From: Flammeovirga sp. SJP92
Lineage (GTDB): Bacteria; Bacteroidota; Bacteroidia; Cytophagales; Flammeovirgaceae
Assembly: GCF_001583495.1 (NCBI RefSeq)
Contig: NZ_LQAQ01000018.1
Location: forward strand, 248,001 to 312,000
Reading direction: 5' to 3'
Length of the DNA stretch: 64,000 bases
Both the position numbers and the translations under genes were made by a program. This document shows positions 30,254 through 33,881 of this stretch, piece by piece (within the stretch, counting starts at the first letter, position 1; each line of letters starts with the position of its first letter). Below the pieces are notes generated by a model. That model ran no database searches. It worked only from the letters and a program-made list of their open reading frames with translations, and was not told the DNA's origin.

Positions 30254-31087
30254 TTATTTCTTATTTCCTGAAAACTCAGATACCCAAAGATCAATTGTTC
30301 TTCCTAATCTAATCTTAGGGTATCTACCTGTCTCTTCATTTACTTTTGAATGAGGAGATTGCCTTACTACTACACCAGGAATAGTATCATGTTGTACGTA
30401 TTGTACTCTACCTACACCCAAGCCTAAACCATACAAAGTAAACTCTGCATCTCCTTCAGTCATACCAATAAGGTTTGGAACTTTTGTCAGCGGGTTACCC
30501 ATTCCGTCACCTACTACTAAGTCCACTTCAGTACCTTTCAATACTTTAAAACCTCTGATCAATTCCTCTTTTGAAATAGACCTTCCTTTGTAACTTACAC
30601 CAATAACATTATTGACAAACTTATCTGGCTTTCTTTCAATTGAACCAATTTTCAATCCTAAGTTTTTAATTCTCACCACTGCATTTTTCAATGAACCATC
30701 AATCAAATCTGGTAATTTGATAGCAGCAGGTTTTGAAGGATTGACTGTTAAATAGATTTTCCTGTTGTCTTTTACCTTTTCACCTGAAACGGGTGTTTGA
30801 GATAAAACTGTTAGATAAGGAAGATCTGGATTATAGTTGACAGCTGAAGAATCAAAGATTTCATACCTTAACCCTGCCGACTCCAATCTTTTGGTAGCAT
30901 CTTCAATAGATAAACTATCAATATCAGGAACGGTTACAGTCTGACCGTGTTTTGTTGATGCAGGTAGATATAAATAGAAAAACATGATCGCCACTACAAA
31001 AGCGGCTACGACCATTAAAACTACATTAATCAATAATGCAGATGGAGTATCTCCAAAAATTAACTTTTTCAGTTTGTCTTTATCCAT
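30254..31087 (-). CDS. PASTA domain membrane protein without kinase domain
   Basis: 277 residues. One membrane helix at about 16-38 (ALLINVVLMVVAAFVVAIMF) is followed by three PASTA domains at roughly 45-112, 113-190 and 195-268. Each carries the pattern of 'V-P-x-L-x-G-x-x-x-x-x-A' (VPDIDSLSIEDATKRLESAG; LPDLIDGSLKNAVVRIKNLG; VPNLIGMTEGDAEFTLYGLG) and 'V-x-x-Q-x-P'. PASTA domains bind peptidoglycan or its precursors. Unlike the well-known PknB/PrkC sensors there is no kinase on the cytoplasmic side. It lies 11 bases after the D-Ala-D-Ala ligase gene, which fits a cell-wall role. Confidence 0.9.
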   Translation of the reverse strand: MDKDKLKKLIFGDTPSALLINVVLMVVAAFVVAIMFFYLYLPASTKHGQTVTVPDIDSLSIEDATKRLESAGLRYEIFDSSAVNYNPDLPYLTVLSQTPVSGEKVKDNRKIYLTVNPSKPAAIKLPDLIDGSLKNAVVRIKNLGLKIGSIERKPDKFVNNVIGVSYKGRSISKEELIRGFKVLKGTEVDLVVGDGMGNPLTKVPNLIGMTEGDAEFTLYGLGLGVGRVQYVQHDTIPGVVVRQSPHSKVNEETGRYPKIRLGRTIDLWVSEFSGNKK

Positions 31088-31098
31088 AATTAATTTAG

Positions 31099-33804
31099 CT
31101 ATGATTTAGCTTCAGTTCTTTTTATTCCGTAATCTAAAATACTATCAATAAAATCAAAAGGCTTATAGCCGTTAATTGCCGCTTGGTGGAAAATACAAGT
31201 AGCAGGTGTCATACCTGGTAGAGAGTTCACCTCAATGACAATAGTTTCTACTCTTTTCTCCGCTTTCCAAATTCTCACAAAAGCATCAATTCTACAGTAG
31301 CCTTGAACATTTAATTCTTTAGCTACATGTTCCAAGTCTTTTCTTACTGCATCAGAGATCCATTGCTGTTCTGCTGCATCTGGAGAAAAACGTGGAGGAG
31401 TGATATTCTGACCTTCGCCAGCCAAGAATTTTTCTTCTAATGAAAGAATCTCTCCACTTGCCAAAGCTTCTGAAGGTTCAAATACCTCATAAGTACGTGA
31501 TCCATCTTCATGCCATTTCGTAAGCATACCTCCTGTAATTTCCAAGAAATGATCAGAATCCAATGGACTGATCAATTCCTCAATCAGAATACATGTTTTA
31601 CTTGGAAACTCTTCGTTTTTATCTAAATCAAGCTTCAGTCTTAAGCTTTCTTCCACTTCTTCACTTTCTCTGAAAATAGCTTCTGCAAAGTGTTCCAACT
31701 GCATTCTTGACTTAATCATCATTACTGCAGAACTACAACCATCATCGGCAGGTTTTGCAATCAATGGGTATTTGAAATCCTTTTCTACTTGATCAATTGC
31801 ATCTGAAGCATTGGCCAACCAAGCCTCTTTCTGTAACAACATGTGTTCTGCTACAAAAACACCCGATTTACGAAGAATCTCTGTAGTCAGATATTTATCA
31901 ATAGTAATTTCTGAACTGTCAACATCAGAACCATTGTAAGGAATTCCTTTTACATTAAGGTGCTTCTGAACAGCTCCATCCTCACCTGGCCTTCCGTGCA
32001 ATGCAATAAATACCGCATCAACTCTTTCTTTCAGAAGATCATAATTCAAAGGTTTTGGATCAAAACAAGCATCCGCCGCGTACTTTTGAGTAATAGGTTT
32101 TGCTTTTTGAATGGCTTCCACCAATACGTCGTGCTTTTCTCCGTTCAGGGCCTGATTGATTTTCAACTTGATATCATCAGCATTGTCCTTCAACATAATA
32201 TTAATCGGCAACTCATACAATTCATGATGATCAGCAGAGCCTGTCAAGAAAATCGGGATAGCCTCATATTTATCTGATGAAGCTAATTTCTCAAAAATGT
32301 TTCTTCCACTTTCAACAGAGATGTGACGCTCTGAAGAATAACCTCCCATGATCACTCCTATCTTCTTAGTTTGTTGGTCTGCCACACTCAAAGCTTCAAT
32401 CTGATGATCCAAATTCTTCAACATAGGCTTCGACACTCTTGTATTTTTTCCTGATCGAATCCTACAAGCTAATGACGTACGGATAATGAAAGTCAAGAAT
32501 TGTGATGGATTTAAACCAATTTCTGCCGCCTGATGAAAAAAGAAAGACGAAGGCATCATACCAGAAGTAGTGTTCGGATCATTCAAATAGACCGTTCCTT
32601 CTTCTGTCACAAAACCATCAATACGAGCATAAACATCAAATTGTAATTTTTTATACAAGTTTTCACAATCTGCCTGAATTTCTCTTACCTTTTCAATCGG
32701 CAAGTCAATCGGTGTCACTTTACGGCTCATACCCGGAAGGTATTTCGATCTGTAATCAAAAACACCTTCATTTCCTCTTACAATTTCTGTTGGAGGCAAG
32801 GCCAAAGGGTTTCCATTTTCGTCTTCAATAACGATACATGAAAATTCTCTACCTTTTATATGTTCTTCAATCAGCAATGCTTCTTCCGCATCTAAAGATT
32901 GAAGGGCTACTTTCGCATTATTCTCTGTGATGAGTTGTTCGTTCAAGTACTCTAATAATGATTTTGGATCGTAAATCACCAAATCGTCATTACCTAGCAC
33001 ATAAACAGGCAAGCCAATTCCAAGACGTACATCCGTGAAATCATGGATGTAACGCACTTTTTCTTCCTCATCTAATTCTTTCCAGTACGATTGTTCAATC
33101 TCCTCAATAAAGAGGGACTTTTTCGCTGCCTTAAGAAATGCTTCTGAGTTGTCTTCTTTCACAATACTTACCCCCAAAGAAGAGCCTTGTCTTGGTGCTT
33201 TCACCACCAAAGGCATTCCTAATTTAGCTTTGAGGGCTTGGAATGTTGTATTGATTTTATCAGCAGTTAAATCCTCTTCAGTGATCACATCAAAAGAAGG
33301 GGTAGTCAACTGTAAATCTGTAAACAGTTTTTTCTGAGTGATTTTATCAATTCCGATGGCAGATGACAACACTCCTGCACCAGAATAAGGAATATTATAC
33401 CACTCTAGCAGTCCCTGTAAATTTCCATCTTCTCCATATGGACCATGTAACGCTAGAAACGCAAAATCAAAAAGCTGTGCGAATTCATTTGGATTTACTT
33501 TCTTTCCAACTTTAGAAGCCATATCACTAGCCTCTTCCTCAGAAAGTTTACCCAAAGATTCCACATACATTTGAAACCCCTGCAAATCGCTTGGAATACT
33601 GCTTACCGGTGGATAAAAATCTCTAACAGTACCTTTATATACATATGACCAGTCTAAATGAATAAAATGGCCTAAACTATCTACAAATATTGGAACAGGT
33701 TCGAAAAGTTGTTTGTTTAAGTTATCATAAACAGTTCTACCGCCTGCAAACGAGATTTCACGCTCTCGTGAAATACCTCCAAAAAATATCCCTACTTTGA
33801 TCAT
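31099..33804 (-). CDS. ddl: Tandem (double-length) D-alanine-D-alanine ligase
   Basis: 901 residues from ATG at 33804; a longer reading from 33876 is ruled out by the promoter at 33874. The protein is two fused Ddl units. N half (1-470): GGISREREISFAGG, HGPYGEDG, GIDKITQKKLF, KAPRQGSSLGVS, EEHIKGREFS, RIDGF, and a final motif DPNTTSGMMPSS. C half (480-901): GGYSSERHISVESG, HGRPGEDG, TIDKYLTTEIL, AKPADDGCSSAVM, EELISPLDSDHF, RIDAF, EVNSLPGMTPA. Typical Ddl is a 300-370-residue dimer that makes the D-Ala-D-Ala of peptidoglycan. The N half keeps the canonical glycine loop and E-x-x-I-x-G-R-E-F but not E-x-N-x-x-P-G; the C half has the reverse. Both retain the ATP lysines. The gene heads an operon with the PASTA gene. 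Confidence 0.93.
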   Translation of the reverse strand: MIKVGIFFGGISREREISFAGGRTVYDNLNKQLFEPVPIFVDSLGHFIHLDWSYVYKGTVRDFYPPVSSIPSDLQGFQMYVESLGKLSEEEASDMASKVGKKVNPNEFAQLFDFAFLALHGPYGEDGNLQGLLEWYNIPYSGAGVLSSAIGIDKITQKKLFTDLQLTTPSFDVITEEDLTADKINTTFQALKAKLGMPLVVKAPRQGSSLGVSIVKEDNSEAFLKAAKKSLFIEEIEQSYWKELDEEEKVRYIHDFTDVRLGIGLPVYVLGNDDLVIYDPKSLLEYLNEQLITENNAKVALQSLDAEEALLIEEHIKGREFSCIVIEDENGNPLALPPTEIVRGNEGVFDYRSKYLPGMSRKVTPIDLPIEKVREIQADCENLYKKLQFDVYARIDGFVTEEGTVYLNDPNTTSGMMPSSFFFHQAAEIGLNPSQFLTFIIRTSLACRIRSGKNTRVSKPMLKNLDHQIEALSVADQQTKKIGVIMGGYSSERHISVESGRNIFEKLASSDKYEAIPIFLTGSADHHELYELPINIMLKDNADDIKLKINQALNGEKHDVLVEAIQKAKPITQKYAADACFDPKPLNYDLLKERVDAVFIALHGRPGEDGAVQKHLNVKGIPYNGSDVDSSEITIDKYLTTEILRKSGVFVAEHMLLQKEAWLANASDAIDQVEKDFKYPLIAKPADDGCSSAVMMIKSRMQLEHFAEAIFRESEEVEESLRLKLDLDKNEEFPSKTCILIEELISPLDSDHFLEITGGMLTKWHEDGSRTYEVFEPSEALASGEILSLEEKFLAGEGQNITPPRFSPDAAEQQWISDAVRKDLEHVAKELNVQGYCRIDAFVRIWKAEKRVETIVIEVNSLPGMTPATCIFHQAAINGYKPFDFIDSILDYGIKRTEAKS

Positions 33805-33873: not shown

Positions 33874-33881
33874 CAAAAATA
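33874..33881 (-). promoter_or_regulatory. -7 promoter element of the ddl operon
   Basis: Minus strand TATTTTTG matches TAnnTTTG, 70 bases before the chosen start. It overlaps a possible upstream start codon (33876), so that start is rejected. Confidence 0.5.

Follow-up and report, generated by a model that had tools for sequence, protein, structure and literature searches.

Why would a bacterium carry two D-alanine-D-alanine (D-Ala-D-Ala) ligases, Ddl, in one polypeptide chain, and why would the two differ at their active sites? This question is raised by a gene of the marine bacterium Flammeovirga sp. SJP92, found in a stretch of 64,000 nucleotides (contig NZ_LQAQ01000018.1, positions 248,001 to 312,000) which we refer to as the window. 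The gene lies at 31099..33804 on the minus strand, as do all window features described below, and encodes 901 amino acids (aa) plus a stop from an ATG at 33804; starting instead from a TTG that lies upstream in the same frame, at 33876, would lengthen the product by 24 aa. The original prediction, made from the letters of the window, described the product as two Ddl units in tandem with complementary losses of active-site motifs. The tandem architecture is borne out by Pfam and by fold matches. Ddl_N was found in two stretches of the product and Ddl_C in four, and both families are above the gathering score in each half. Half 1 (residues 1-456; 32437..33804) is a complete Ddl unit and half 2 (residues 478-901; 31102..32373) a complete Ddl fold, and a helix of about residues 455-474 (32383..32442) links them in the secondary structure of the AlphaFold2 model.

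For 66 tandems modelled with AlphaFold2, the mean predicted local distance difference test score (pLDDT) was 91.7 and the predicted template modelling score 0.91, the weakest stretches including both omega loops. VIA-align gives only the best alignment for each entry, and Z differences under 1 count as ties. Half 1 best matches DdlA 3i12 (Z 39.2, root-mean-square deviation 2.7 over 334 residues), and half 2 best matches the Thermus Ddl 6u1d (Z 38.8), with the Leuconostoc D-Ala:D-lactate ligase 1ehi at Z 38.4. 1ehi, VanA (1e4e) and ancestral VanA (3se7) fit half 2 best, and the D-Ser ligase VanG fits half 1. No tandem was found among the matches of the PDB sequence search, the matched chains being single-unit ligases of 306-386 residues. 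Each half thus resembles single-unit Ddl (E. coli DdlB, Salmonella DdlA; EC 6.3.2.4) in its domains and fold, while the whole protein differs from it in being two fused units with five marker changes and a displaced counterpart of E187 in half 2, all of which are described below.

The source genome (8.49 Mb, rated 100% complete) holds just two Ddl_N matches in a Pfam domain search, and these are the two tandem halves; no other protein with this domain was found there, and a single-unit Ddl of this kind elsewhere in the genome, which would have spoken against the original prediction, thus did not appear. The same genome also encodes a 355-aa ATP-grasp protein with Ddl_C and without Ddl_N (L002, G000:C90:143344-143946). 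The closest named relatives among the matches listed belong to Flammeovirga, at 94% identity across the tandem Ddl.

To compare the two halves, we numbered positions after E. coli DdlB by means of a MAFFT alignment. Tandem loci with a length of 800 aa or more numbered 159, and dropping near-identical ones left 147 distinct tandems; the residue table left out loci L001-L010 and the short-flank loci L197-L254. A subset of single-unit loci served for comparison, 45 single Ddls in all: DdlB itself and members of the order (7), the class (24) and the phylum (13). The residues E15, S150 and Y216 we take to be the hydrogen-bond triad of Ddl. D-Ala-D-Ala is bound by Tyr221, Arg260, Gly281 and Ser286, and Mg by Asp262 and Glu275, in the Ddl described in PMC6899670. 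We took these residues as DdlB 216, 255, 276 and 281 for D-Ala-D-Ala and 257 and 270 for Mg.

In half 1 the triad is intact in 147/147 tandems (E14-S208-Y355 in the window protein), and the ATP residues and those binding the second D-Ala (D-Ala2) are kept as well. Ser150 corresponds to S208 in the loop GSSLG (33172..33186), and K215 and Y216 to K354 and Y355 in the omega loop FDYRSKYLPG (32731..32760). S150, Y216, D257, D270, N272, S275 and G276 are each present in all 147, S281 in 146; K144 is kept in 145 and is Arg in two, the other ATP residues being invariant, and E68 is lost in one. The original prediction had the E-x-N-x-x-P-G motif of this half turned into DPNTTSG (32560..32580), which is right as far as E270D and P275S are concerned, N272 and G276 being retained; the motif has these four residues in every tandem. 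The Mg-ligand set of half 1 is thus D257, D270 and N272 throughout, and the exchange of Glu for Asp at metal ligand 270 is a conservative change.

Half 2 shows a different set of changes. Its triad reads E-C-F in 147/147, and for this reason half 2 taken alone was not filed as a dipeptide-type Ddl. The loop change noticed originally is real: GCSSAV (31723..31740) replaces Ser150 with Cys690 (Cys in 147/147) and G153 with Ala (139/147). Two further differences lay beyond the original list. In the omega loop EEKFLAGEGQN (31405..31437) K215 is kept and Y216 has become Phe793, Lys and Phe being invariant in 147/147; and in EVNSLPGMTPAT (31198..31233) E270, N272, P275 and G276 are kept and S281 is replaced by Thr869, all five residues again in 147/147. 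K97, K144, E180, K215, R255, D257, E270 and N272 are likewise invariant in this half. The remaining motifs of the original prediction could all be located, GSSLGV and GREF in the first half and EVNSLPGMT in the second; the ATP lysines, HG..GEDG and the Glu of the N-terminal motif are present in both halves, as it had claimed. Its statement that half 2 has no GREF holds for the letters, which are absent, and does not hold for the glutamate: Glu755 (31540..31542), invariant in 147/147, is aligned by MAFFT to DdlB E187, preceded by an insertion about six residues long, and is probably the displaced equivalent of that residue.

All five marker positions are canonical in 45/45 single Ddls. When columns at least 80% conserved in the singles were surveyed, half 2 was fully separated by S150C, Y216F and S281T, and half 1 by E270D and P275S; columns 6, 22, 252 and 284 separated the groups partly. 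The fully separating columns all lie on the metal or D-Ala side, none of them at the ATP lysines. Representatives of the tandems with the invariant markers include some that share no more than 39% identity with the window protein, and the invariance of five markers in 147 tandems, together with their absence from 45 singles, is more than chance would be expected to produce. We thus define a Bacteroidia tandem Ddl group, to which the window protein is assigned, by the signature D270/S275 in half 1 and C150/F216/T281 in half 2.

It was plausible to ask whether such changes reflect the loss of one half. Mean pairwise identity among 66 representatives is 54.6% for half 2 and 52.6% for half 1, and the nonsynonymous divergence (dN) of half 2 is below that of half 1 in 33 of 36 within-genus pairs; dN was relied upon because synonymous divergence was saturated in many of these pairs. 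By these sequence measures the two halves are conserved to a similar degree, and the half-specific changes look like fixed specialisations rather than decay. Decay of half 2 into a pseudogene is ruled out for full-length tandems by residue invariance together with constraint, and applies in one truncated clade only (see below). The idea that the halves differ in complementary, conserved ways and that each has specialised therefore stands, the markers being invariant in 147/147 and the two halves not both carrying every catalytic residue. The idea that these changes are losses does not: half 1 is presumably competent in genomes where it belongs to the only Ddl_N protein, and half 2 has invariant ATP and Mg residues and is equally constrained.

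What, then, might half 2 do? The reading we prefer, held with evenly balanced confidence, is that half 1 is an ordinary D-Ala-D-Ala ligase and that half 2 provides a second ligase site whose acceptor specificity has changed. Half 1 would have a Tyr-type site that binds ATP and Mg using Asp where Glu270 normally stands, and its D-Ala-D-Ala product would be joined by MurF to peptidoglycan precursors. In half 2 a conserved ATP-grasp ligase site would have had its D-Ala2 (acceptor) side rebuilt through S150C, Y216F and S281T. As it is the acceptor side that is rebuilt, half 2 would most likely activate D-Ala and couple it to a different acceptor, or do so under different conditions. The covalent link would hold the two sites at a fixed ratio, perhaps replacing the Ddl homodimer. 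Composite sites formed by domain swapping, with the N-terminal and central domains of one half and the C-terminal domain of the other, appear unlikely by inspection: no such combination would give a canonical site, and the S150C/Y216F pair sits inside one half.

The main rival, which we find doubtful but serious, reads the residues in another way: half 2 may be a regulatory pseudo-ligase that binds ATP/Mg and D-Ala or product with little turnover, its function being to control or stabilise its obligate pseudo-dimer partner, half 1. On one hand, both triad hydroxyls are missing from half 2 in 147/147 tandems. On the other hand, the full Mg-ligand set D257/E270/N272 and all three ATP lysines are invariant, beyond what binding alone would need, and the Y216F form of E. 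coli Ddl still forms a phosphorylated inhibitor complex in the crystal, according to the title of 1iow. A literature search for triad mutants found nothing. The Y216F enzyme may retain activity in solution as well.

Far less probable is a reading that puts the weight on half 2 for its canonical E-x-N-x-x-P-G motif, as against the altered motif of half 1. The motif is indeed canonical in half 2 and not in half 1, but half 1 retains the entire triad and the D-Ala-binding residues, is nearer to known Ddls (best phmmer E 3.6e-39, versus 1.1e-23 for half 2) and, with D270, stands in the sole remaining Ddl_N protein of eight genomes.

Among 58 genomes, the source genome included, 38 have the tandem in one reading frame, with exactly two Ddl_N matches in each, and two more have it interrupted by contig ends, one showing half 1 only. 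The rest comprise eight genomes with a truncated form, two with split genes, seven with a single Ddl and one with none (89% complete). In the class sample, a continuous match of at least 800 residues was found in 122 of 295 Bacteroidia genomes, and a fragment or several pieces in 14 more. The phylum sample holds 296 genomes, 223 of them outside the class Bacteroidia; among the matches listed for these 223 none covers both halves, the best (93.7 bits) covering one unit. A long frame of the phylum sample (L275, genome G452) holds a single Ddl unit. The best 80 of 399 relatives in named genomes are, by title, Bacteroidota or unnamed relatives, except for L048, a Cytophagales-type tandem Ddl on a contig labelled as a Bifidobacterium breve metagenome-assembled genome, which is probably mis-binned. 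In one genome a piece of some 106 aa that corresponds to residues 789-894 of half 2 (G009:C1:1323829-1324140) lies about 10 kb from the intact tandem and is probably a partial duplicate. No viral copy of the tandem was found in an IMG/VR pattern scan, and matches in a phage collection were confined to 20 of 50,697 records, the 10 listed being at 23-31% identity.

A tree of 91 of the 141 prepared units, built by a quick method and midpoint-rooted for drawing, resolves three clades: half 2 and its split form (support 100), half 1 together with its fragments and its truncated and split versions (99), and the single Ddls (98). Since each half falls in one clade, the tree agrees with a single event of duplication and fusion that preceded the spread of the tandem in the class. 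A single origin is thus consistent with the data, as is transfer within the class.

The truncated form occurs in genomes G018, G020, G027, G037, G039, G045, G052 and G054, each with one Ddl_N match, the protein concerned having retained half 1 without the ATP-grasp of half 2. In a careful half 1 tree (61 rows, columns 270 and 275 removed) it is one clade (100/99) nested in a group (98/93) together with three tandems from the family to which the source organism belongs. E15, HG..GEDG and the entire ATP-grasp domain are gone from half 2 in this Cytophagales clade, which leaves it a non-catalytic remnant; half 1 keeps D270 and has Pro at 275 (7/7 tabulated). Because theirs is the sole Ddl_N match in eight genomes, half 1 with D270 is presumably competent and the source of D-Ala-D-Ala in these bacteria. 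The remnant of the half 2 N-domain models with a pLDDT of mostly 86-94, and its being kept suggests a structural contact, a point in favour of the pseudo-ligase. The earlier suggestion of one catalytic and one structural half thus applies to this clade and is not favoured for full-length tandems.

Split halves (L129-L132) were found in genomes G038 and G053, of 1.1-1.2 Mb, and lie far apart in G053. Here Val stands at 275 of half 1, the HG-motif residue H63 of the same half is replaced by Asn or Tyr, and half 2 has Ala at 276. That a family with reduced genomes keeps both halves as separate genes again speaks for a regulatory partner. Across the rows compared, half 1 carries Ser at 275 in 43/43 with half 2 present, Pro in 7/7 truncated ones and Val in 2/2 separate genes, so this position may possibly be coupled to the state of half 2.

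These variants also bear on the explanation we rate lowest, in which the halves act sequentially on one reaction. Carbamoyl phosphate synthetase has two ATP-grasp halves that act in sequence, and its large chain resembles the tandem in having two diverged ATP-grasp units per chain; both ATP sites are conserved within one chain in the tandem too. However, that enzyme catalyses another reaction, and we saw no sign of a shared intermediate in the tandem Ddl. Moreover, half 1 alone is apparently enough in the truncated clade, the halves persist as separate, distant genes in G053, and neither half lacks the residues of an entire half-reaction.

Half 2 may also be compared with the Phe-type D-Ala-D-lactate ligases (Leuconostoc LmDdl2, 1ehi; Lactobacillus curvatus Ddl), which it resembles in F793 at the place of Tyr216 in 147/147. 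Phe in place of the active-site Tyr makes Ddl of lactic acid bacteria a D-Ala-D-lactate ligase, as stated in PMC5996685. Unlike L. curvatus Ddl, the one such ligase compared, half 2 has C150 and T281 and not S150 and S281. It also stays under the NCBIfam D-lactate cut-off (96.6 bits against the D-Ala-(R)-lactate ligase model, cut-off 550). D-lactate specificity could not be argued from family profiles either, as the NCBIfam D-lactate models score below the dipeptide models on both halves and half 2 is not singled out.

Several of these observations, with others, weigh against a second ligase site in half 2. One Cytophagales clade survives without the catalytic domain of half 2, and single-unit Ddls replace the tandem in several lineages. 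A Ddl without recognisable Ddl_N may exist, given the 355-aa Ddl_C-type protein of the source genome and a similar short match in truncated G027. No NCBIfam model passes its cut-off on either half alone, and on half 2 the D-lactate models score under the dipeptide ones. Half 2 does not simply belong to the Phe depsipeptide type, since S150 and S281 are both retained in the Phe-type ligase of L. curvatus; this, with family profiles that do not favour lactate, limits the reading to an altered acceptor. Finally, Pro and Val at 275 represent one tree event each, so the association with half 2 rests on two events.

A PASTA-domain protein gene (30254..31087; Pfam PASTA 9.6e-26; one hydrophobic N-terminal segment by eye) starts 11 bases downstream of the tandem Ddl, on the same strand, and had been thought to strengthen a cell-wall role. 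It is a conserved neighbour: of 80 tandem loci, 65 have PASTA immediately downstream in the same orientation and 74 have a match to it anywhere in the locus, the six without it including one with just 598 bases downstream. In the split family the PASTA gene lies behind half 2. It does not adjoin any of the eight truncated genes (two with under 600 bases downstream), and all eight of these genomes keep a PASTA frame of 266-307 aa elsewhere. Yet PASTA is also found just downstream of nine single-Ddl loci (L137-L140, L227, L258, L260, L262, L263), many others being short-flanked, so there is nothing special to the tandem in this arrangement, and as a clue we consider it neutral. In one genome (G492, L290) a chain of 1184 aa combines the tandem Ddl, a hydrophobic, probably membrane-spanning stretch and C-terminal PASTA domains, which suggests a link of Ddl with the membrane. 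Outside the window, the source genome encodes a MurF-alanine racemase fusion (G000:C60:109690-112083). The model for this fusion is above the NCBIfam cut-off in 53 of the 58 genomes, and fusions are thus frequent in the D-Ala branch of this order.

Fused Ddl proteins are also known from plants. According to PMC9954125, plant DDL (Arabidopsis, Physcomitrella) is a fusion of two DDL units, present throughout the plant lineage, and thus resembles the tandem in having two Ddl units in one chain. PMC9434261 reports P. patens Ddl as closest to homologs from the Fibrobacteres-Chlorobi-Bacteroidetes group and proposes horizontal transfer. The plant protein differs in being eukaryotic, the moss enzyme serving plastid peptidoglycan. 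Its first half may have a D-x-N-x-x-S-G-M stretch, which is a lead only. Among the matches listed in our search of open-licence papers for fused or tandem Ddl or D-Ala-D-Lac in Bacteroidetes, we found no report of a bacterial tandem Ddl. A broader proposal can be formulated, which we think unlikely as a whole: much of the Gram-negative Bacteroidia would have a fused dipeptide/depsipeptide ligase, half 1 (Tyr) making D-Ala-D-Ala and half 2 (Phe, Cys, Thr) joining D-Ala to a D-hydroxy acid or another non-alanine acceptor, giving two kinds of peptidoglycan stem terminus, and the fused plant DDL would descend from this bacterial tandem, its halves sharing out the work as they do here.

Ddl is targeted by the drug D-cycloserine, and a single Tyr/Phe position of Ddl decides vancomycin resistance in lactic acid bacteria (PMC5996685). 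With the Tyr and the Phe version each fixed in one chain that is widespread in the class, the tandem amounts to a natural experiment on Ddl specificity, for which the truncated, split and single-unit lineages would be ready-made controls. It may also provide a bacterial counterpart, assayable by halves, for plant DDL, whose activity in Arabidopsis is described as unproven in PMC9954125.

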